From an uncultured Saprospiraceae bacterium (lineage in GTDB: Bacteria; Bacteroidota; Bacteroidia; Chitinophagales; Saprospiraceae): a DNA stretch of 64,000 bases. Below the pieces are notes generated by a model. It was given only the letters and a program-made list of their open reading frames with translations. It had not been told where the DNA came from and made no database searches. The translations under genes were made by a program, and so were the position numbers. Below, in pieces: positions 32,974-46,628 of the stretch (positions are counted from its first letter, which is position 1; every line of letters starts with the position of its first letter). The stretch is from positions 1-64,000 of the forward strand of contig CALIZI010000021.1 in the NCBI GenBank assembly GCA_938028705.1, given 5' to 3'.

Positions 32974-33043
32974 TTATTGAATTTGAAGCACGAAGATCAC
33001 GAAGAACACAAAAATAAAACGGATAAAAAGAACACAAATTATG

Positions 33044-33207
33044 GGCATGTTTAGATTTGTTGTAAAAGTAGTTGACACTTTTTCACGCAGAGCGCACAGA
33101 GTTCGCAGAGGGTTAATTATCAAATCTCTGCGACCTCTGCGTGATTTACTCAATTTGGAGCTTATGCTACATTGCAAAAAAGTGTCAACTGCAATTCTAA
33201 ACATGCC
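33044..33207. repeat. Triple-nested foldback element
   Basis: Four inverted pairs nest inside one another: 33044-33055 with 33196-33207 (ggcatgtttaga), 33070-33083 with 33177-33190 (agttgacacttttt), 33084-33092 with 33135-33143 (cacgcagag) and 33104-33110 with 33126-33132 (cgcagag). The string gtgtcaactacttttaca of the left arm (reverse strand) recurs at 42611-42628. Confidence 0.8.
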
Positions 33208-33210
33208 AAA

Positions 33211-33726
33211 TTATGGCAAATTAATATTCAATACATACAAAGCCAAATCTTCATCGTCATTTGGCAGTCGAATGATTTTATCATACACAAAACCCAATCG
33301 CTTCAACAAATTGATAGAACGCTGATTAGTGGGCAGCGTAACGGCAAGTATTTTTTGGAAATCATGTCGCTCCAATTCATAATTCAATACTGCGCGAGTG
33401 GATTCATACGCATATCCAAAACCTTCATAATCAGGAAGAAAAGCAAAACCCGCATCTACATCATCCAAACCTTCGCGTCGGAAAAAGCCCGTTGTGCCAA
33501 TCGTCACGCCACTGTCTTTTAGGATGACTTTGTACGCCCCAAAACCGTCTTTTTCGTAGCAAGGAAAATATTTTTCAATGATATAATTTCGTGCATCGTC
33601 CAATGTACGCACTCCTCTGTCACCGATATTTTTTATCCATGCAGGGGTATTGAGCAATTCTAAGACGAATGGCGCATCTTCGAGGGTGAAACGGGTGATG
33701 AGGAGACGGTCTGTGGTGATTTTCAT
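33211..33726 (-). CDS. GNAT acetyltransferase, RimJ/RimL type
   Basis: 171 residues. It starts MKITTDRLLITRFTLEDAPF, with motif A around FLPDYEGFGYAYESTRAVLNY and the late TLPTNQRSINLLKRLGF characteristic of RimJ/L-type N-acetyltransferases using acetyl-CoA. The start is 4 bases after the DUF4435 stop, so it is the third gene of the ATPase-DUF4435 operon. Its substrate is unknown. It could be incidental, or it could modify a component of the system. Confidence 0.85.
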   Translation of the reverse strand: MKITTDRLLITRFTLEDAPFVLELLNTPAWIKNIGDRGVRTLDDARNYIIEKYFPCYEKDGFGAYKVILKDSGVTIGTTGFFRREGLDDVDAGFAFLPDYEGFGYAYESTRAVLNYELERHDFQKILAVTLPTNQRSINLLKRLGFVYDKIIRLPNDDEDLALYVLNINLP

Positions 33727-33730
33727 TCGA

Positions 33731-34735
33731 TTAATTGAAATTTTGAATGTATAAATCTAAGTCTGACTTTATTTTTTGGTAGAGAATGCAGGTTTTGAAA
33801 TCGGTGTTGGTGGAGAGGACATCTTTGATGTCTTTACATTTGTTTTTATAGTGGTTAATTTGGTTTTTTGATTCTTCTTGGTGTTGGGCGTTGATACTAA
33901 TTTCCTGTATTTTTTTCTTTCTTAATTTGCGACACAGTGGTTTTAAAATCATCAAGACCACGTTATCAAATAAAGTATGTCCATTCATAAAAAGATATGC
34001 TGTATCTTCATTTAAACCTGATGGACGAAGTTGTTGAGACAATGCTGCAACTTTCTGAATATCAGAGGGATGACTTTGCTCTAATTCAGCTATTTTGGCT
34101 TGTACTCTCTGCTCTACATCTAAAATAGCAGCTTTACATCGCGTATCAATATCTACATTTATCAAGATTTTTACAATGTCAGAAAAGTTAGTTATTGTAA
34201 ATGTGGTCGTATCATTTTTAGAAGTAAAATACAAAGACCATAATAAGAGCGGATGAATAATATTAGAATATAATTTTAATAATTTTGATAGATTGATTTT
34301 TTGTTCGGAGTTCTTTGTTGCACGTACACATACACCTTGTAAACTCTCTTTGTAACACTTTAAATTTTCTGTTGAATACACATACGTTTGAAAAATATAT
34401 TGGTTTAGATTAATTTCTTTAGAGTTACCGGAATGAGTGGGTAAAAGGTAATCATAATCACTATCAACACACAGAATAAGATGTTTTCCGGTGTTGTTAG
34501 CGTGTTTTAAAATTGTTTGCTTCCCTGTAGCAAGACTATTATTTCTTGATAATGGAGTGATGTCAAACACAATATTTTTTTGGGGCTCATAATCTTTTAA
34601 AATGTCATACCAGAATGCCTCGTCTTCATGCCCTTCTACGTACACCTGTACACGTGGTAGGGTGTCATTCGGGCGCAATTTTGCAAAGGCTTCGACAAGA
34701 TTAGAATCAAGATTTTCGGTAAGTCTATTCGGCAT
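33731..34735 (-). CDS. DUF4435 (TOPRIM-like) protein, AriB-like effector candidate
   Basis: 334 residues. The N-terminal TOPRIM-like pattern is YVEGHEDEAFW (E34) then LILCVDSDYDYLL (D91, D93), followed by YSTENLKCYKES, which is typical of DUF4435. In PARIS systems the DUF4435 protein AriB is the nuclease effector held by the ATPase AriA; it acts by cleaving tRNA. This gene overlaps the ATPase by 11 bases (34725-34735), so the pair is translationally coupled. The C-terminal half is helical and unlike known domains. A defence role is inference from the pair. Confidence 0.7.
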   Translation of the reverse strand: MPNRLTENLDSNLVEAFAKLRPNDTLPRVQVYVEGHEDEAFWYDILKDYEPQKNIVFDITPLSRNNSLATGKQTILKHANNTGKHLILCVDSDYDYLLPTHSGNSKEINLNQYIFQTYVYSTENLKCYKESLQGVCVRATKNSEQKINLSKLLKLYSNIIHPLLLWSLYFTSKNDTTTFTITNFSDIVKILINVDIDTRCKAAILDVEQRVQAKIAELEQSHPSDIQKVAALSQQLRPSGLNEDTAYLFMNGHTLFDNVVLMILKPLCRKLRKKKIQEISINAQHQEESKNQINHYKNKCKDIKDVLSTNTDFKTCILYQKIKSDLDLYIQNFN

Positions 34736-35684
34736 TTTCTAAAATGGCTTGATTATCAGTTACTATTAAATCGCTGATTTCCTTTACTTTATCCATCCAA
34801 CCATCCATAATAATGGCAGGAGAATGTGTCGCAAGAATAATTTGTACATTCGGGTTGAGTTCGAGAATATAGTCTATTAGCTTTTTTTGGACATCAAAAT
34901 GTATGGAGATTTCTGGTTCGTCCATAAACAATATTGTAGGCTGTTGATCTTGCACTAACGTAGTTAGTAAAATAATCAAAATTTGTTTTTCGCCGGAAGA
35001 TAACTGATAAGGTGATATTTTTCGTTTTTTTGAACGAAACGAAATCTCATTTTCTGATTCATCTACATGTTTCCCCGTGTGTGAATAGGCTTCATTTAAA
35101 ATTTTGATAAATTTCTTTTTAGGGAGATTTATAGTGTGAAGTTTTGTTGTACCATTTGCAGCAGTTCCATTTACCTCTAAAGCTCTTTTTCCTAAATCTA
35201 CTTGATAATTCAAATATTTTCTTTGTAGAAGATAAATCAGCCAGTCTAAATACGTTTTAATTTGACTATCAAATTTTTGTGCCGTTTCTTTGATAAGTAA
35301 CTCATTATCAATAGGTTTAATGAAGTCAATCGCAGGAACTTCGACTTTCCTAAGTACAAGGCGAGTAAGTGGTTTAGAGGGCTTGTTTTTAGTTGGTGGT
35401 TCTTGTACATAGGGTAAGTCATCAACCATATCATGAGGGTCAATTTCATAGAATCCGAGTGTTTGGTCATTATCAAAGGTTAATGTAATGTCTTCCATTT
35501 TGTAAGGCTTATCTATGAATTTTTGAATTGCTACCTCATAAACATACCTCAAAACCGTACTCTTCCCACTCCCATTCACACCCGACAATACATTCACATC
35601 AGGATGCAAATTCCATTCAAGGTCATATCGCCCCCAAAGCCCTTTAATCTCAATTTTCGATATATATTTAATAGCTTCTTCCAT
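34725..35684 (-). CDS. AAA/ABC-type ATPase, AriA-like (OLD/AAA_15-21 group)
   Basis: 319 residues. Walker A GVNGSGKST (35-43), ABC signature LSSGEKQ (228-234), Walker B ILFMDEPE (251-258) and H-loop ATHSP (285-289) are all present. This fits the SMC/RecF-like ATPases that occur with OLD or DUF4435 nucleases. It is shorter than many AriA proteins, lacking a long coiled-coil insertion. The gene starts the three-gene operon ATPase-DUF4435-GNAT. It likely senses phage proteins or DNA and controls the partner; this is inferred from the family. Confidence 0.8.
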   Translation of the reverse strand: MEEAIKYISKIEIKGLWGRYDLEWNLHPDVNVLSGVNGSGKSTVLRYVYEVAIQKFIDKPYKMEDITLTFDNDQTLGFYEIDPHDMVDDLPYVQEPPTKNKPSKPLTRLVLRKVEVPAIDFIKPIDNELLIKETAQKFDSQIKTYLDWLIYLLQRKYLNYQVDLGKRALEVNGTAANGTTKLHTINLPKKKFIKILNEAYSHTGKHVDESENEISFRSKKRKISPYQLSSGEKQILIILLTTLVQDQQPTILFMDEPEISIHFDVQKKLIDYILELNPNVQIILATHSPAIIMDGWMDKVKEISDLIVTDNQAILENAE

Positions 35685-38546: not shown

Positions 38547-40166
38547 CTAAGGCACCACAAGTTTCTCCGTATAAGTACCTCGTTCCGTTTCCACAGCAAT
38601 CAAATAAATACCCGATTCAAGATTCGCATTTATCACTGGATTGTAGGATAATATTTGATAAAATACTTCTCGTCCTTGAATATCAAATACCCGCACGACT
38701 TTTTCCGAATCATCGTCATTGCCGATATTGATTTGAAATTTTCCATTCGGACTTGGATTAGGGAAAATACTGATAGCCAATGTGTTATCATCCTCAATTT
38801 TCGGTGAATTGACGCGCTCAAGATACCACTGTTGCGAAGTCCAGCTTGTGTTGAGTGGTCCGTTTTGTACTTCTGCCCAGTTGGTATTTCGCCCATTGAG
38901 GTACTGACCGCCCCAGTTGCAACGCAGTCGGTAATTACTCGCTCCGGCATCTTCCAAAGTCCACATTTGCGAAGTCCAGCTTGTATTTAGCGGTCCGCTT
39001 CTGACTGTTCCCCAGTTGGCTGCATCGCCGCTAAGGTATAAGCCTGTCCAGCGATTGCGAAGGCGATAAGTATTGCCCGAAACACGTTCCAATTCCCACA
39101 TTTGCGAAGTCCACGAATCATTATGAGGTGCTACCCTTGCCGGATTCCATGGGGTATTGTCTCCATTGAGTCTCAAATCACCCCATTTGCAGTACAGACG
39201 GTAAGTGCCTTCGGGCAAAATACCGCCGCCACCACCGCCACCGGGGTTGCCTTGCCAGTAATAGCCGTTATTTTTAGCGTGCTGAATAAATTGATTGGTC
39301 AGATTGAAGGAATTATCATCCCAATCTCGCCAATCTACCCAACTGATGCCCATGCGTTCCCATGCTTCACCATTGACAAAAAAGCCTTCAATCGGATTGA
39401 CATAGGGCCAAAAATCGGTGCGTATATCCCACTCCGTACAAATCACGCGATAGTTTTGCATCAATTGACGCACTTTATTCAGGTTGTCGTCGGGTGCATT
39501 GGCGTAACTGTGAACACCCACCGAAGCATTCGTCCAATCCACCTCATAATAATGATTCGTAATACCCACAATATCATGGTTCAATGAATTAAAGGTAAAC
39601 ATAATAATATGTCGGTTCGGGGCAGCATTCCGTACTTGATTGTACAGCCCTACCAAGCCGCTTTTGAAATTCGGGTGGTAATAATCATCACTCACAAAAG
39701 TCGGTTCATTTACGATTTCATAGTAAACAAGCGGGTTGTCGGCATACCGCCAGGCGATTTCTCCCCAAAATTGATTGACCGGAGAAAAATTATAATACAA
39801 ATTGCTCGTACCTTGTTCGTCAATATTATGATAATTGATAATAAGATTCATACCCGTTTCATTGGCATTTTGTACGCATTGGTCAATATAAGGACGCACT
39901 TCCGCAGGTGACCAATGTTGAAAACCATTGTCTCTGTACCAAGGATCTACCCAACACAGTCTGATGGTATTAATTCCTTGCGATTGCAAGTAATACCAGT
40001 TATTAATATCAGTGGCAAAACTGTTACTTTGAGGAAGATGTTTGGCGAGCATCATAGGTGCGCCGCGCATTTGTTCTCCATTAGCATCGAATAAAGTCCC
40101 TTGTGCAAATAGGGCGCAGTTCATTAGGGTGAAAATTGCTATAAATATTAATTTTATTTTATTCAT
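38547..40166 (-). CDS. Secreted GH5 endoglycanase with ricin-like module, T9SS
   Basis: 539 residues from ATG at 40166, which gives the signal peptide MNKIKLIFIAIFTLMNCALF. The upstream open frame to 40328 lies in repeat DNA. The GH5 (beta/alpha)8 domain spans residues about 25-300, with acid/base E154 in EIVNEP and nucleophile E245 in VICTEWD. A poly-glycine linker follows, then three QW-type beta-trefoil repeats (YRLYCKWGDLRLNG.., YRLRNRWTGLYLSG.., YRLRCNWGGQYLNG.., each ending in SWTSQ-W). The C-terminal T9SS domain is SIFPNPSPNGKF..GIYLIAVE. It likely hydrolyses beta-1,4-glucan or mannan outside the cell, with the lectin module binding glycan. Confidence 0.85.
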   Translation of the reverse strand: MNKIKLIFIAIFTLMNCALFAQGTLFDANGEQMRGAPMMLAKHLPQSNSFATDINNWYYLQSQGINTIRLCWVDPWYRDNGFQHWSPAEVRPYIDQCVQNANETGMNLIINYHNIDEQGTSNLYYNFSPVNQFWGEIAWRYADNPLVYYEIVNEPTFVSDDYYHPNFKSGLVGLYNQVRNAAPNRHIIMFTFNSLNHDIVGITNHYYEVDWTNASVGVHSYANAPDDNLNKVRQLMQNYRVICTEWDIRTDFWPYVNPIEGFFVNGEAWERMGISWVDWRDWDDNSFNLTNQFIQHAKNNGYYWQGNPGGGGGGGILPEGTYRLYCKWGDLRLNGDNTPWNPARVAPHNDSWTSQMWELERVSGNTYRLRNRWTGLYLSGDAANWGTVRSGPLNTSWTSQMWTLEDAGASNYRLRCNWGGQYLNGRNTNWAEVQNGPLNTSWTSQQWYLERVNSPKIEDDNTLAISIFPNPSPNGKFQINIGNDDDSEKVVRVFDIQGREVFYQILSYNPVINANLESGIYLIAVETERGTYTEKLVVP

Positions 40167-40207
40167 AATATATTTTTTGAAATGTAAAATGTAAAAGTGT
40201 TTGTATA

Positions 40208-40426
40208 GTACCTTGACAATGTTATGTTTTAAAAATAAAAATATGCTTGTGTTTAACATGGGATATTTTTTCCGAATTTGGGCTAAAACTCGTCTGACAT
40301 TTAAATATTGCTGGAAATATAACATCATCGGTAAATTTTGAAAATGTCTGACGAGTTTTAGCCCAAATTCAAGAGTAAAATGCCAATTATATTAAACAAA
40401 AACCGAACATGACATTGTCAAGGTAC
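40208..40426. repeat. Nested foldback element, 15- and 29-bp arms
   Basis: The outer arms 40208-40222 and 40412-40426 are perfect inverted complements (gtaccttgacaatgt). The inner arms 40274-40302 and 40342-40370 are 29-base partners with one mismatch and contain the ctcgtctgacattt word seen in other hairpins. The 219-bp element fills most of the GH26-GH5 spacer (40167-40561). Confidence 0.85.
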
Positions 40427-40561
40427 ATAATTAATTTACTTTTTATTTTATTTATAATAATTTTAAAATCAATAAAATAGAAAAGAATCACGTTTGTTTC
40501 GCGTTAGAAACTTTTACATTTTAAATTTATTATTTTACATTTTACATTTAATTATATTAAT

Positions 40562-42319
40562 TTATTTTTTAATAAAAATACCTCTCGCAAAACGCTCTGT
40601 TCCATCTTCATTTTTCAAATAACCTACCAGCAAATAAGTGCCTTTGGCGAGTGTACTGACATCCATCGTTTGCCCTTGACCTTGAAGAGCGAGTTTGCCC
40701 GATGTATCGTAGATTTCGTAATCCAAAGGCGTATCAATACCATTGAGTTGGATGAAAGAAGTTGCCGGATTTGGCCTGATTTGCAATTCGACGGTTTCGC
40801 CTTGTGTGAGGCGTACATTTCTACCGTCGAGGTACTCCAATGTCCACATTTGACTCCACCAGTTGGTATTCAAATCGTAGGTTTGTACCTCAAGTTGGTC
40901 GGGAGTTTGGAGATACCTGTCTGTCCAGCGATTTCTGAATCGGAAGTGTCCTGTACCGGTACTTTCGATGTGCCACATCTGACTCCACCAAGCGTTATTG
41001 AGCGAATACACATTGACCGGAGCTTCGTTGTTATCTGCCGTATTGGTGAGATAATTGCCACCCCAACTACATCTGAGGCGATAAGTACCTGCCTGCGCCT
41101 CTTCGATATTCCAACGCTGACTATACCAATTCTGATTGAATGGAAATAACCTGACTATTGCATTGGCTTCGTTTGCTGTTTGGTGCAAATAGGTGTTGGT
41201 CCAGCGATTTTTGATACGCAATTCACCCACAAAACCCGAACCTCCGCTTGGCGGTGGCGGCGGCGGTGGATTTACCCCCAAATTAATTTCATCCCGCGTA
41301 ATGACCCACGAATCGGCAAAAGTCTGATAAGTATATTGGTTGTCGGCATAGGCGATGCTGGCTCCGGGCCAACTGTGCCAAGCGTAGGAAAACACAAAAT
41401 CAGGATATTTGCTTTTGATATTATTGACCATTCGCCTGTAATCATAATTGCCGAAAGCGCCCGAAATTGTAGGTCCAAACTCCGTAAAACCCATTGGGTG
41501 TCCGAGCGATTGCATGTCCTGATATTCGCGTGAAGGGTCATAAGTATTGGCATTATCGTCATACAAATCCATACCAACGACATCCACGTATTGGCTGCCC
41601 GGATAGTAATTCGTAAGGGTGCGATAGAATGTATTGCCAACAGAATAAACCCAGAGCAAATTGTCCATTCCTTGCTCATAAGTGAGGTAGTTGAACATAT
41701 CTCTGTACAGGTTTTTATAGGCTTCTTCGTGTCCTTCCCAGTATTTTTCGCCCCACCAGAACCAATCGCCGTTCATCTCATGTAGTGGTCGCCAGAGGAC
41801 GGTCACGCCTGCATCTCGCAGAGGACGCAGGGCATTTGCCACTTCTGCCAATTGCGCTCGCCATACGTTGTACATGCCGTTGTTTGGGTCGGTTAGTTCC
41901 CAGAGACTTTCGTAGTTGTTGGTATCCCATGAGTTGCCGCCCGTCCAGGGGTTGTCAAAGTGCCATGATAGCGTGACCAAGCCGCCGTCGTTCCAATAAT
42001 TAATCATTAATTGATTGGTTTGTGAGACGTTATGACCATTATCCAAGCCATAATCACCGCCAATCATACCAATCCATTTTCCGGTTTGGTTGCGAAGTTC
42101 GCTGACGTAATTATTGTAGCCACTCGACATGTTATTGCCATGTCCCAAGTCTTGTCCCAAAAGCAATTTGTTGTTGCTTTTGTTTTTCAAGCTACTTAGA
42201 TATTCCAAGACCTGTTTGGTTTTGGCATTGGAATTAGGATTAGCGGGATTTTGTGCTATTGCAATATTTGAAATGAAAAATGCAACACATAAACAGATAA
42301 AAGTTAGTTTATATCTCAT
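40562..42319 (-). CDS. Secreted GH26 beta-mannanase with ricin-like module, T9SS
   Basis: 585 residues. A signal peptide ends near NIAIAQ. The GH26 domain (residues about 30-340) has LLGQDLGHG, acid/base E181 in WRPLHEMNGDWFWW, nucleophile E280 in GFTEFG and the HSWPGA loop. A proline linker (PPPPPPPSGG) leads to three beta-trefoil repeats (IKNRWTNTYLH.., YRLRCSWGGNYL.., FRFRNRWTDRYLQ..). The T9SS domain runs LQIRPNPATSFIQL..GTYLLVGYLK. Predicted to cleave internal beta-1,4-mannosidic bonds of mannan or glucomannan. Neighbours are GH5 and GH10 enzymes of the same build. Confidence 0.9.
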   Translation of the reverse strand: MRYKLTFICLCVAFFISNIAIAQNPANPNSNAKTKQVLEYLSSLKNKSNNKLLLGQDLGHGNNMSSGYNNYVSELRNQTGKWIGMIGGDYGLDNGHNVSQTNQLMINYWNDGGLVTLSWHFDNPWTGGNSWDTNNYESLWELTDPNNGMYNVWRAQLAEVANALRPLRDAGVTVLWRPLHEMNGDWFWWGEKYWEGHEEAYKNLYRDMFNYLTYEQGMDNLLWVYSVGNTFYRTLTNYYPGSQYVDVVGMDLYDDNANTYDPSREYQDMQSLGHPMGFTEFGPTISGAFGNYDYRRMVNNIKSKYPDFVFSYAWHSWPGASIAYADNQYTYQTFADSWVITRDEINLGVNPPPPPPPSGGSGFVGELRIKNRWTNTYLHQTANEANAIVRLFPFNQNWYSQRWNIEEAQAGTYRLRCSWGGNYLTNTADNNEAPVNVYSLNNAWWSQMWHIESTGTGHFRFRNRWTDRYLQTPDQLEVQTYDLNTNWWSQMWTLEYLDGRNVRLTQGETVELQIRPNPATSFIQLNGIDTPLDYEIYDTSGKLALQGQGQTMDVSTLAKGTYLLVGYLKNEDGTERFARGIFIKK

Positions 42320-42650
42320 TGTTCGTAAAAAATTAAATGGTTATTTGACTGTATTGTAACCGAATTAGATAAATTTAATTAAAATATTTTTAAATATGTT
42401 TTAGAATTGCAGTTGATTTTTTATATTTAAATTGAAATAATATAAATATAAAATAATAATTGTAAAATATAAATTTGTAGGACGCGAGATGTTTCTATTT
42501 TATTTATTTTTAATTATTTAAATAATATAAAAATGAAAATATATTGTACACGTACTACATCCAGATAGTTATCGGGATTTACATTTTAAATTTATTATTT
42601 TACATTAAAAAAAAGTGTCAACTACTTTTACAGTAAATTTAAATATGTTC
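42320..42650. other. GH10-GH26 spacer, AT-rich
   Basis: A 331-base AT-rich spacer upstream of GH26. Near the GH10 stop, 42611-42628 repeats the string gtgtcaactacttttaca found in the foldback element at 33044-33207, apparently without its inverted partner. No coding frame was seen. Confidence 0.5.
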
Positions 42651-44405
42651 TTATTGTTTAATAAAAGTACCTCTCGCAAAACGCTCTGCACCGTTTTCAT
42701 CTTTCAAATAAGCAACTAACAAATACGTACCATTAGCGAGTGTGCTGACATCTACTGTTTGCGCTGTACCTTGCAGGACGATTTTGCCGGATATATCATA
42801 AATTTGATAATCCAAAGGACTGTGAATACCCGTCAGTTGAATGGTAGAAACGGCAGGGTTGGGACTGATGATGAGGTCAATGGCTTCGCCTTGTACGACT
42901 TTCAGATTTCTACCGTCGATATACTCAAATACCCACAATTGACTCCACCAGTTAGGGTTCAAATCGTGCGTTTGGACATCAGATTGATTGGAGGTGTGTA
43001 GGTACTTTCCGGTCCAGCGATTTTGGAGTCGGAACAGCCCGTTTCCGGCATCTTGTATATACCACATCTGACTGGTCCAATTTTGTTGATAGCTAAATAC
43101 ATTGACCGGTGCATCGTTGAATGTATTAGAACTATTGAGATAATTGCCGCCCCAGCCACTACGCAAGCGGTAGCTGCCATCCGTTGCTTGTTCGACATTC
43201 CAACGCATGCTGTACCAGTCAGCCACGAATCCTTGTAGAGAGGTATTTGCAGCGACAGAATTATCGTTTTCATTCAAATAAGTATTCGACCAAAGATTGC
43301 GAATACGCAACTCGCCCACAAAGCGGTCTTGTGTTGGAGGTGGAGGAGGAGTACTTCCTGTAAATGCTTCGAAGAGTCCCCAGTAAGCGGGTTTTTTATT
43401 ATTATTTCTATCGAATGGTAGCGGGTGATCGACGATATTATCCTCGTCGAATTGATTATCGAAGAGGTCATACCAAGTATATTTGTCGCTCAAGTCCCAC
43501 GTTTGGAAGTACTCCCCTCTAGTCGGGTTTCGGAGAAAAATTTCAGCAACTTTTTTGTAGGCTTGTTTTTGTCTTTCGAGCCAGTAATCGGAGTTGTCGG
43601 GGATGCGTATGTCGAGTTCGGTGACATAATTTTTGAGTCCCATATCGGATATTTCCTGCATGCGTTGTTCGAGTGGAAAATTGGGGTCGAGTGCCAAGTC
43701 AGGATTAGCGATGTGCAATTGCCAACCAAGACCATCTATGCGCGTACCCGATGATTGTATCCAGCCCAAGAGTCCTTTGACGGTTTCAAATTTGGCTAAA
43801 TTGGTTTCTATATGATAGTCATTATAAATGAGTTTGGCATCGGGGTCGGCAGCATGGGCTTCGCGGAAGGCTTTGATGATGTATTCGCCTGTCATAGCCT
43901 TATTCCAGTAGCAATAACGATAATTGCCAAAGTAATCTATGGCTTCATTGACAACATCCCATACATCCACACGTCCTCTGTATCTGCCTACCACAGTACG
44001 GATATGGTCGAGCATAATCCCCTCGGCTTCGTGCAGAGGTTTGTTGAGTACCCAATCAGGAATAAGTGCATCTTCTCCCCATACGAGTGGGTGTCCGTGT
44101 ATATCCCAATTGTTGGCTTCGGCAAAATCCATTCTGGCATCCGACCTGCCCCAGTTATACACACCTTCATAGGGATGGGTGTTTGATTTCCAGTAGGTTG
44201 TTACGGTAGCTACGGACATGTTATCGCGGTAGAGTTGTGCATTTGCGGGGTCGTCAATTTCCATAATGGGAGACCCAAATTTGATGCCTTGCGCGAGTGC
44301 TGCGTCTCTGACTTCTTGTGCATTGGTAGGGCTTAGATATAAAAAGAACATAAGCGACAACATAGCTATGCCGCTACTTTTTGTTAAATGTTTATACATT
44401 TTCAT
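42651..44405 (-). CDS. Secreted GH10 endo-xylanase with ricin-like module, T9SS
   Basis: 584 residues from ATG at 44405 (the frame opens to 44432). A signal peptide ends at LSPTNAQ. The GH10 barrel spans residues about 30-370, with HGHPLVWG, acid/base E154 in DVVNEAI, nucleophile E263 in VTELDIRI and TWDLSDKYTWY. A short PPPPPT linker and beta-trefoil repeats (IRNLWSNTYLN.., YRLRSGWGGNYL.., FRLQNRWTGKYLH..) follow. The T9SS domain is LIISPNPAVSTIQL..GTYLLVAYLK. It likely hydrolyses xylan backbones. It is paralogous to the next gene, and the last part of both genes is nearly identical at DNA level. Confidence 0.9.
   Translation of the reverse strand: MKMYKHLTKSSGIAMLSLMFFLYLSPTNAQEVRDAALAQGIKFGSPIMEIDDPANAQLYRDNMSVATVTTYWKSNTHPYEGVYNWGRSDARMDFAEANNWDIHGHPLVWGEDALIPDWVLNKPLHEAEGIMLDHIRTVVGRYRGRVDVWDVVNEAIDYFGNYRYCYWNKAMTGEYIIKAFREAHAADPDAKLIYNDYHIETNLAKFETVKGLLGWIQSSGTRIDGLGWQLHIANPDLALDPNFPLEQRMQEISDMGLKNYVTELDIRIPDNSDYWLERQKQAYKKVAEIFLRNPTRGEYFQTWDLSDKYTWYDLFDNQFDEDNIVDHPLPFDRNNNKKPAYWGLFEAFTGSTPPPPPTQDRFVGELRIRNLWSNTYLNENDNSVAANTSLQGFVADWYSMRWNVEQATDGSYRLRSGWGGNYLNSSNTFNDAPVNVFSYQQNWTSQMWYIQDAGNGLFRLQNRWTGKYLHTSNQSDVQTHDLNPNWWSQLWVFEYIDGRNLKVVQGEAIDLIISPNPAVSTIQLTGIHSPLDYQIYDISGKIVLQGTAQTVDVSTLANGTYLLVAYLKDENGAERFARGTFIKQ
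42658..42935 (-). repeat. Near-identical 3' segment shared by the two GH10 genes
   Basis: The bases encoding the T9SS domain here match 44649-44928 of the next gene almost perfectly, while the catalytic parts differ much more. Upstream non-coding bases of both genes (44406-44460 and 46388-46450) are also similar. This indicates tandem duplication followed by local gene conversion of the sorting domain. Confidence 0.75.
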
Positions 44406-44641
44406 AACAAAAATTAATAGTTTAATAATCAAATTATGCGGTATCGAAGGACATAATTTTGCCAGCTAATTTTTATGGATGTAAAAGTGGATGTTGAATG
44501 AGGGAAGCGTATGTGTTAAGTGGAAGTATATTTTAATTTTTAATTTAAATTGAATTAAAGCACTGATAATCAATTCTATAAGGTTTTTGAAAACCTTACA
44601 GGATTTGTGTATGCCTCATATTCCACCGATTTCTTACATAA

Positions 44642-46387
44642 TTATTGCTTAATAAAAGTACCCCTCGCAAAACGCTCAATACCGTCTTCATCTTTCAAAT
44701 AAGCAACTAACAAATACGTACCATTAGCGAGTGTACTGACATCTACTGTTTGCGCTGTACCTTGCAGGACGATTTTGCCGGATATATCATAAATTTGATA
44801 ATCCAAAGGACTGTGAATACCCGCCAGTTGAATGGTAGAAACGGCAGGGTTGGGACTGATGGTGAGGTCAATGGCTTCGCCTTGTACGACTTTCAGATTT
44901 CTGCCGTCGATATACTCAAATACCCACAATTGACTTTGCCAATTTGAGTTGTAATCGTGGGTGCGAACATTGAATTGATTGCCGGTATGAAGATACCTGC
45001 CTGTCCATCGGTTTTTGAGTCGGAACAAGCCGTTTCCGGCATCTTCGATGAACCACATTTCGCTCCAAAAATTGGGGTCGTAGGAGGCAACATTGACAGG
45101 TGCATCGTTGAAATTGGCGGTGTTATTAAGATAATTGCTACCCCAGCTACATCGCAAGCGATAAGTTCCTGCGTCGGCTTCTTCAAAATTCCAACGTTGG
45201 CTAAACCAATCGGGGCGGGCTTCGTGCAAGATAACTTCGCCACCGGAGAAATTGCCGGCTTGATGCAAGTAGGTGTTCGACCAAAGGTTTTTGATACGCA
45301 ATTCGCCTACATAGCGATTTTCGTCAATACCTGCAAATCCTTCGTAAAGCCCCCAAAAAGCGGGTTTTTTATTGTTATTTCTGTCGAATGGCAGCGGGTG
45401 GTCAATTCTTCCTTCGGGGTCGTATTGATTGTTATTTTGGTCGTACCAAGTGTATTGGTCGCTCAGGTCCCAAGTCTGAAAATACTCGCCTCTGGTCGAA
45501 TTGCGGAGAAAGATTTCAGCGACTTTTTTGTAGGCTTGTTTTTGTCGTTCAAGCCAGTAATTCGAGTTGTTGGGGATGCGTATATCCAGTTCGGTGACAT
45601 AGTTTTTAAGTCCCATATTGGATATTTCGTTCATGCGTTGTTCGAGAGGGAAATTATCACTAAGTACCTCGTCGGGATTTGCTATATGCAATTGCCAACC
45701 CAGACCGTCCACTTTTACACCTGCCCACTGCATCCAATTGAGGAGTCCTTTGACGGTTTCAAATTTGGCGAAATTGGATTCTATACCATAATCATTGTAA
45801 ATCAATGTGGCATTGGGGTCAACGGCGTGTGCTTCGCGGAAGGCTTTGAGGATATATTCGCCCGTCATTGCCCGATTCCAGTACGAATTACGGTATGTAC
45901 CATCGTCCTCAATGGCTTCATTGACAACATCCCATATATCTATACGCCCTCTGTAACGACCGGCTACGCGGCGGATATGGTCGAGCATGAGTGCTTCAGC
46001 TTGATTGAGTGGCGTGTTGAATACCCAGTCGGGAATGTGAATATCGCTGCCCCATACGAGTGGGTGTCCGTGTACATCCCAGCCGTTTTCTTCGGCAAAT
46101 TGTATGGCTTCGTCGCTTTGCGCGAAGTCAGGCGGACCCGGGTTGATGCGAGTGCTATATTTCCAATAAGTGGGGATAGTACCTACGGCAACATTGTCGC
46201 GGTAGAGTTGTCTGTTGGCAGGGTCTTGAAGGGTGAAGAGGGGGGAACCGAATTTGATGCCTCTCGCGGCGGCAGCATCACGTACTTCTTGTGCTTCAGA
46301 AGTATGGCTCAGGCATAAAAAAAACATCAGTAACAATATAGACATTACTATACTGCTAGCACTTAGTAAATATTGGTATATTTTCAT
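44642..46387 (-). CDS. Second secreted GH10 endo-xylanase, T9SS
   Basis: 581 residues from ATG at 46387 (MKIYQYLLSASSIVMS); the frame is open to 46453 but the extra part has no signal character. The GH10 domain has acid/base E157 (DVVNEAI) and nucleophile E266 (VTELDIRI), with TWDLSDQYTWY. Beta-trefoil repeats run IKNLWSNTYLH.., YRLRCSWGSNYL.., FRLKNRWTGRYLH... The T9SS domain is nearly identical to that of the neighbour. It likely has the same xylan-degrading role with altered specificity. A 453-codon open frame exists on the opposite strand, but it is a shadow. Confidence 0.9.
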   Translation of the reverse strand: MKIYQYLLSASSIVMSILLLMFFLCLSHTSEAQEVRDAAAARGIKFGSPLFTLQDPANRQLYRDNVAVGTIPTYWKYSTRINPGPPDFAQSDEAIQFAEENGWDVHGHPLVWGSDIHIPDWVFNTPLNQAEALMLDHIRRVAGRYRGRIDIWDVVNEAIEDDGTYRNSYWNRAMTGEYILKAFREAHAVDPNATLIYNDYGIESNFAKFETVKGLLNWMQWAGVKVDGLGWQLHIANPDEVLSDNFPLEQRMNEISNMGLKNYVTELDIRIPNNSNYWLERQKQAYKKVAEIFLRNSTRGEYFQTWDLSDQYTWYDQNNNQYDPEGRIDHPLPFDRNNNKKPAFWGLYEGFAGIDENRYVGELRIKNLWSNTYLHQAGNFSGGEVILHEARPDWFSQRWNFEEADAGTYRLRCSWGSNYLNNTANFNDAPVNVASYDPNFWSEMWFIEDAGNGLFRLKNRWTGRYLHTGNQFNVRTHDYNSNWQSQLWVFEYIDGRNLKVVQGEAIDLTISPNPAVSTIQLAGIHSPLDYQIYDISGKIVLQGTAQTVDVSTLANGTYLLVAYLKDEDGIERFARGTFIKQ

Positions 46388-46628
46388 ACAACAAAAATTA
46401 ATAGATTTAATAATCAATAAATTATGCGGAATCGGAGGGCATAATTTTGCCAATTAATTTTTGTGAATATAGAGCGGATATAATATGGGGGGAGGGGTAA
46501 ACGGCAGATTTATAGGAGTGTAGTACAAACCTGTTTATTATACATACTTAAAAGAGGAAAATGTAAACAGTTGGTGGTGGGAAGTGAGGTTATTGGATTA
46601 CTATCTCCTGATTTTATACTACATTTGA

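Follow-up and report, generated by a model that had tools for sequence, protein, structure and literature searches.

The nested inverted repeats found in the window, i.e. the whole stretch of 64,000 nucleotides analysed from an uncultured Saprospiraceae bacterium, form a non-autonomous DNA transposon (MITE) with asymmetric inverted ends of about 40 and 31 nt and an 8-bp target duplication. The element carries in its interior a palindrome built on CGCAGAG, well shown to be a second, separately dispersed unit. Palindromes of this kind also frame the tiny gene of a predicted nuclease, GxxExxY, in many phyla, which suggests a little-known palindrome-plus-nuclease system.

Four inverted pairs are nested at 33044-33207, all present at the coordinates given in an earlier note on this DNA: an outermost pair of GGCATGTTTAGA (33044-33055 / 33196-33207), a second of AGTTGACACTTTTT, with 14 of 14 positions paired (33070-33083 / 33177-33190), a third of TCACGCAGAG and CTCTGCGTGA (33083-33092 / 33135-33144) and an innermost one of TCGCAGAGG and TCTCTGCGA (33103-33111 / 33125-33133). 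Perfect 8-bp direct repeats, absent from that note, bound the structure (Table 1). Folded as single-stranded DNA, the stretch 33036-33215 reaches -44.1 kcal/mol, versus -18.3 +/- 2.9 for 200 dinucleotide shuffles, none of which equalled it (z -8.9). The 62-nt palindrome by itself reaches -17 kcal/mol (z -4.8), a value also equalled by none of 200 shuffles. No Rfam match was found in the loci L122, L300, L301 and L001.

Table 1. Features of the nested element and of its decayed copy in the window.
Feature	Positions	Strand	Basis
Target-site duplication, left copy AAATTATG	33036..33043	.	identical to 33208-33215
MITE family F1, type A (CGCAGAG core), 164 bp	33044..33207	+	BLAST matches and paired copies
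Left end GGCATGTTTAGA...AGTTGACACTTTTT	33044..33083	+	end-word count versus control
CGCAGAG palindrome, inner separately dispersed unit, 62 nt	33083..33144	+	fold; recurrence in other MITE families and naked
Spacer, palindrome to right end (TTTACTCAATTTGGAGC...)	33145..33176	+	present in other type A copies too
Right end GGCATGTTTAGAATTGCAGTTGACACTTTTT	33177..33207	-	end-word count versus control
Target-site duplication, right copy AAATTATG	33208..33215	.	identical to 33036-33043
Decayed copy of the window MITE, without CGCAGAG palindrome, ~255 bp, approximate boundaries	42393..42647	-	both ends recognised

The genome to which the window belongs (8.0 Mb in 483 contigs) contains 54 BLAST matches to the element, partial ones included. 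Genome-wide counts of its words, as proposed in the earlier note, gave 61 matches for the right-end word and 41 for the left-end word, each with up to 3 mismatches, and 352 for the palindrome word ACGCAGAGNNCGCAGAG, several per palindrome; the control gave 0 in every case (reversed patterns for the end words). From the fetched stretches 47 copies with two facing ends, 141 to 671 bp long, were collected as family F1. In 45 of them a 35-nt left end faces a 26-nt right end, the exceptions being a copy with two right ends and one with a 34-nt left end. Both flanks could be read for 45 of the 47 copies. Their 8-mers, 88% A+T, agree perfectly in 24 copies and with no more than one mismatch in 31; 2000 shuffled pairings yielded a mean of 0.6 identical pairs and a maximum of 4. 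Paired ends, together with identical 8-bp flanks far beyond the shuffles, therefore identify F1 as a MITE family, with GGCATGTTTAGA as terminal inverted repeats, an 8-bp duplication and many copies too short for a transposase. In an assembly that breaks in repeats, reading of the fetched ends, at the level of the end sequences, revealed no parent combining F1 ends with a transposase.

Linkage of the end words was evaluated in 223 kb of fetched loci of the same genome, a set selected by these words and hence biased: exact GGCATGTTTAGA is followed by AGTTGACAC in 89 of 90 cases, and exact AGTTGACACTTTT is accompanied by the F1 outer word in 70 of 79 and by the outer end of another family, F2, in 6, the remaining 3 being at a contig edge or in truncated copies. 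The four pairs had been taken for four separate elements inserted into one another. This reading was rejected, as the outer two pairs travel as one end: they are the asymmetric ends of the MITE, and the CGCAGAG pairs further in are repeated words of a single hairpin. There are therefore two units and not four; MITE ends and a separately dispersed palindrome make one level of nesting rather than three. What holds of the original idea is that two dispersed units are nested.

Three types of core are found in F1: the CGCAGAG palindrome (type A) in 29 of the 47 copies, a share inflated because a type A query retrieved many of them, a GTTTGCTAAACTT palindrome in 9 and TGTAAAATG repeats in 9, so that 18 of the 47 have a core other than the CGCAGAG palindrome. 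Within the family, type C copies in L087, L085 and L088 (G000) are interrupted by sequences resembling family F6 (CTCACATTTCTGTTAAATTTTTTCGAG and variants), an apparent nesting of MITE in MITE. Remnants of ~50 bp, with the right end almost directly joined to the left one, occur in L052 (3621-3671) and L058 (480-528) of G000 and are apparent internal deletions.

Inspection of 20 stretches, fetched from about the first 100 palindrome matches listed, and of further loci of the same genome revealed four settings of the CGCAGAG palindrome: F1 MITEs, MITEs with other ends, one tandem array (L064) and naked palindromes, the latter at L116:499 and also around the GxxExxY gene of the same genome. The earlier note had reasoned that words never found alone would make the nest a single unit; CGCAGAG clearly does occur apart from the F1 ends. 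The other carriers are the families F2 GACATGTTTATCGA, F3 GGGTGCAGCCCAAATTGTCGC, F4 GGTTCTTTGACAATTTTTGCAAA, F5 TATACTGTGAACGG and F6 CATTTCTGTTAAATTTTTTCGAG. An F2 copy in L111 has an 8-bp duplication, AAAACATC; perfect 8-bp target duplications bound 4 of 4 copies of F3 and 4 of 5 of F4, and family F7, at locus L256 of congener G003, has 9-bp duplications CAATTCTTC. The palindromes inspected end in TCACGC...GCGTGA, and lack the GTAG (or CGTC) tag of RAYT-type REP/REPIN sequences.

The ends of the seven families were compared in 21 pairs, each against 100 shuffles; the right arms used for F2, F4 and F5 still held short remnants of the palindrome. F1 and F2 are related (score 26, shuffle maximum 13). 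Similarity is marginal between F1 and F4 (15 vs 13) and between F1 and F7 (11 vs 10), and borderline between F1 and F3 (score 12, equalled in 4 of 100 shuffles); in the other 17 pairs, F5 and F6 against F1 included, it was no better than in shuffles. We infer that the palindrome was captured by MITEs more than once, each captured copy being then multiplied with its MITE. A left end fused directly to the right spacer, without palindrome, gave 0 matches for the exact pattern, and therefore no pre-insertion form of type A was obtained; no duplicated target was detected around the palindrome itself, nor any MITE in the states both before and after palindrome insertion. The location of the palindrome in the MITE interior agrees with the suggested insertion at a hairpin tip, a weak argument since such short MITEs offer little other target. 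Instead of the CGCAGAG palindrome, an F4 copy in L085 (326-524, G000:C69) carries another one, rich in G+C (CCCCCTCCAAAGGGGG); palindrome capture by MITEs may therefore be general in this genome. In another genome of the phylum, six triplets of CACAAAG/CACTAAG type are arrayed at a spacing of 110-112 bp (G228:C59:85-666).

An arm described as lacking a partner, at 42611-42628, turned out to be the left end of a decayed whole copy, in which AGTTGACACTTTTT lies at 42610-42623 on the minus strand, AAAAAGTGTCAACTACTTTTACA is exactly as in the window element and the opposite end, TTTTAGAATTGCAGTTGA, is found at 42399-42416. Outside the genome, the F1 left end was searched in a set of 60 genomes, i.e. 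this one and 59 relatives. It was detected in four: 87 matches in the genome itself, 46 in congener G005, 13 in G002 and 2 in G003, with none in congeners G001 and G004 or in the 54 genomes of other genera. The comparison of close relatives for insertions, also proposed earlier, located the left end in three of five congeners and gave no before/after pair for the palindrome. In the congener loci the palindrome is present in 2 of 7 paired F1 copies. To the right of the window MITE lies an acetyltransferase gene, which three congeners (L267, L268 and L270) possess with no MITE beside it; these are not clean empty sites because the sequence to the left differs in each.

GxxExxY genes can sit near such repeats, and this prompted a search of the same genome, where one TIGR04256 match was detected. 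Three naked palindromes flank it, two on the upstream and one on the downstream side; they fold at -20.5, -23.7 and -31.3 kcal/mol. Protein P0001 is a member of the family by score (TIGR04256, 140.6 bits with a cut-off of 35; PF13366 PDDEXK_3, 135.4 bits with a cut-off of 22). Among 296 genomes of the phylum, taken as Bacteroidota on the strength of Por secretion-tail domains and of the protein's relatives, 17 contain the exact palindrome word and 26 a triple-unit pattern, the own genome counted in each, for a union of 37. GxxExxY is found in 35 of these 37 versus 152 of 296 overall (nominal hypergeometric probability 1.8e-9, the species not being independent). The two palindrome genomes without a detected GxxExxY, G164 and G230, have one palindrome match each, and 117 of the 152 GxxExxY genomes have neither pattern. 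Reversed patterns, used as controls, hit 3 of 296 genomes in one survey and 2 of 296 in the other; the two genomes of the latter, G103 with 6 matches and G184 with 8 (14 in total), are both among the 35, each having also one match to the real pattern and GxxExxY.

In 31 GxxExxY loci of the phylum, CACAGAG is the most enriched 7-mer near the gene (74 near and 7 far occurrences; 19 loci vs 2). Starting from the palindromes, GxxExxY lies within 1.5 kb in 3 of 18 palindrome loci of other genomes of the phylum. An L122 query gave 74 DNA matches in congener G005, a genome 69% complete compared by DNA similarity alone, all at its palindromes and none over the gene. The search for an empty site of the own GxxExxY locus in the congeners returned, beyond palindromes, a match to the gene itself alone, in G004, where such units also flank the GxxExxY gene. 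At that congener's locus L253, the gene is followed by a CTTTGCG/CTTAGCG tandem array with 8-bp spacing and a period of ~42 bp.

The survey was extended across phyla with an alignment of 30 proteins as query, and the best 80 of at least 556 relatives, among at least 587 candidate stretches, were retained. These loci span Bacteroidota, Acidobacteria, cyanobacteria, Planctomycetes, Verrucomicrobia, Chloroflexi, Desulfobacteraceae and others, the groups being partly taken from record titles. A motif-free count of words within 300 nt of the gene placed CGCAAAG (214 near, 85 far, 21x; 49 of 80 loci) and CGCAGAG (84 near, 32 far, 22x; 32 of 80) among the enriched words present in most loci. With units defined as CGCAAAG, CGCAGAG and variants, C[GA]C[ATG][AG]AG, repeated at a period of 8-9 bp, doublets stand beside 55 of the 76 genes with sufficient flank versus 12 of 245 intergenic stretches lying far from the gene in these loci; restricted to the 9-bp period, the figures are 39 of 76 versus 7 of 244. 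Upstream arms are 38 forward and 13 reverse, downstream ones 8 forward and 38 reverse, a polarity which therefore places the gene inside the palindrome. Similarly, the inverted similarity of the 150-nt flanks is at least 16 for 58 of 76 GxxExxY genes versus 21 of 251 other ORFs. The remaining 21 of the 76 loci yielded no unit doublet; in L188, L211 and L243 the counted units are absent and long palindromes of other units are present. Hand-chosen sets of 16 loci, for the flanks, and of 15, for the arms, were also inspected. Unit type tracks protein similarity weakly (p 0.022, 66 loci, uncorrected for taxonomy). At the level of sequence, the association of a palindrome family with GxxExxY genes across phyla, the gene often lying between the arms, is well supported.

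In two cases the arms and the gene stand between neighbors that are close in relatives. A 464-bp stretch with TTCACGCGAAGG...CTTCGCGTGAA arms and GxxExxY separates fabD from fabG in Sphingomonas parapaucimobilis; the gap is 30 bp, without the unit, in Rhizobium indigoferae, and the two genes are similarly close in S. paeninsulae, where fabG is unannotated and was matched by BLAST. In Bacteroides finegoldii, TTCACCACAGAG...CTCTGTGGTGAA arms and GxxExxY separate radA from a FAD-dependent gene; the distance is 13 bp in Parabacteroides distasonis, and a different ORF occupies the position in Phocaeicola massiliensis. From arm end to arm end the two units measure ~437 and ~472 bp, respectively. An [arm]-GxxExxY-[arm'] unit of about 440-470 bp is thereby shown to separate, on two replicons, genes adjacent in relatives; the comparisons being between species, they tell presence from absence and do not establish one insertion event. 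Plasmids seldom carry GxxExxY (8 of 72,556 records, four of the eight loci inspected). The plasmid locus L303, from Prevotella, has no CRCWRAG-type arms and an inverted-flank score of 11; the score of L301 is only 12 because an arm overlaps the annotated gene end. At the protein level GxxExxY was found in 0 of 50,697 phage records. Among viral contigs, a relative is encoded in 2 of 123 candidate stretches, and the palindrome word occurs in 19 stretches.

A structure model was built for a Nostoc sequence from a 73-row alignment (pLDDT 94.8). The best Foldseek match is 4ic1 (SSO0001), which we take to be a Cas4 protein, with an E value of 0.0057, none being below 0.001. Structural comparison with 4ic1 gave Z 9.6 and rmsd 4.4 over 101 aligned residues; Hjc (1gef) gave Z 7.0 and rmsd 3.3 over 86, where a Z below 8 may merely mean a common arrangement, and there is similarity to the fold of lambda exonuclease too. 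E27, D67, E77 and K79 are invariant in all 73 aligned sequences, the last three, which make up the D...ExK motif, being presumably catalytic. The modelled fold, the PF13366 match and D67/E77/K79 all fit a predicted PD-(D/E)XK nuclease.

These observations are combined in an explanation considered moderately probable as a whole: the window element is a MITE with a captured palindrome, the naked palindrome is a gene-less GxxExxY unit, and GxxExxY promotes its spread. The naked palindrome would be the non-autonomous form of the arm-GxxExxY-arm unit, to which it would stand as a REPIN stands to its RAYT gene. GxxExxY, with its predicted PD-(D/E)XK fold, would cut the palindrome extruded as a hairpin or cruciform, and the cut would promote copying or insertion of the palindrome elsewhere. 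Some palindromes may have landed in MITEs, or recombined into them, to be then multiplied by the MITE's own transposase; the window element would be one such doubly mobile copy. GxxExxY is a plausible candidate for the mobiliser of the palindromes. A broader formulation, somewhat less probable, is that GxxExxY and its flanking palindromes make up a phylum-spanning class of minimal mobile elements, of ~440-470 bp and with one PD-(D/E)XK nuclease of ~125 residues between arms of 8-9-bp units, whose gene-less palindromes would be non-autonomous offspring colonising other transposons, the window MITE among them.

Other explanations were weighed against this one. The nest could be a single unit, an ordinary MITE with a core hairpin arisen by chance, and the palindrome does occupy the same spot in nearly all type A copies (a 671-bp copy differs), as expected from one amplified ancestor. 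The palindrome is nevertheless missing from 18 of the 47 same-ended copies, its word has 352 matches genome-wide, and the same palindrome is found in MITEs with other ends and naked, which already contradicts the idea; it is very improbable and was rejected, since the palindrome exists outside F1 ends. It is also conceivable, and judged unlikely, that the palindromes are scattered hairpins, serving as terminators or mRNA stabilisers, without an enzyme of their own, GxxExxY being a passenger caught between them and the nesting in MITEs being due to recombination. The 15 of 18 palindrome loci of other genomes with no GxxExxY within 1.5 kb would be expected in that case, as would the failure to find a target duplication of the palindrome; GxxExxY in 35 of 37 palindrome-bearing genomes, and a gene-inside-palindrome polarity consistent across phyla, speak against it.

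Less probable still is a role of GxxExxY in defence or repair, in which the nuclease would attack or process palindromes once they are extruded, without spreading them, the arms being its own regulatory site. The resemblance of the fold to Cas4 and lambda exonuclease agrees with such a role, as do the two palindromes that immediately precede GxxExxY in the own genome, but the arm-gene-arm block stands between genes adjacent in relatives, and the 352 palindrome-word matches persist in a genome with GxxExxY.

Like other bacterial MITEs, the window element is short and non-coding, with inverted ends, an 8-bp target duplication and tens of copies; it differs from them in carrying a second dispersed palindrome. 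A bacterial MITE is reported for Cardinium (PMC9769881). The own genome resembles REPIN/RAYT systems (REPtrons) in having many intergenic palindromes and a single gene flanked by the same palindromes. However, the flanked gene belongs to the PD-(D/E)XK family rather than to the HUH tyrosine transposases, the arms are repeated 8-9-bp units without a GTAG tag, and in many loci the arms of a single palindrome enclose the gene. The likeness to Cas4 and, more weakly, to archaeal Hjc resolvases is one of PD-(D/E)XK fold, which does not imply function. REP/RAYT systems are described in PMC3733652 and PMC3116915; the former also reports genes for tyrosine transposases with long inverted repeats on either side, part of these repeats belonging to repeat families, and this is the nearest published analogy found.

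The accessible portions of PMC8934634 report a GxxExxY domain by one pipeline where another tool saw a cas4 gene; there, and in those of PMC12085832 and, for PF13366, PMC9756366, neither a function of GxxExxY nor a link to palindromes was found. Searches for PDDEXK_3, TIGR04256 and the palindrome words retrieved no literature, those for CGCAGAG as a 'repeat' were uninformative, and no description of the palindrome-GxxExxY association was found in the literature searched, whose coverage mostly excludes subscription journals. GxxExxY is present in 152 of 296 genomes of the phylum, yet no function is given in the literature found; its link to a palindrome family makes the function directly testable, and suggests where the dispersed palindromes of several phyla come from. 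The window element shows one mobile repeat travelling inside another and, if the proposed explanation is true, GxxExxY and its palindromes would be an analogue of REPIN/RAYT built on an unrelated enzyme.

Two further groups of genes were noted in the window. A DUF4435 gene beside an AAA_21/AAA_15 ATPase gene (33731-35684) is, we guess, the defence-like operon mentioned in the earlier note. Four neighboring glycoside hydrolase genes (GH5-like, GH26, GH10 and GH10) at 38547-46453, all of which encode a RicinB_lectin_2 domain as well as a Por secretion tail, are perhaps a cluster for xylan/mannan degradation.
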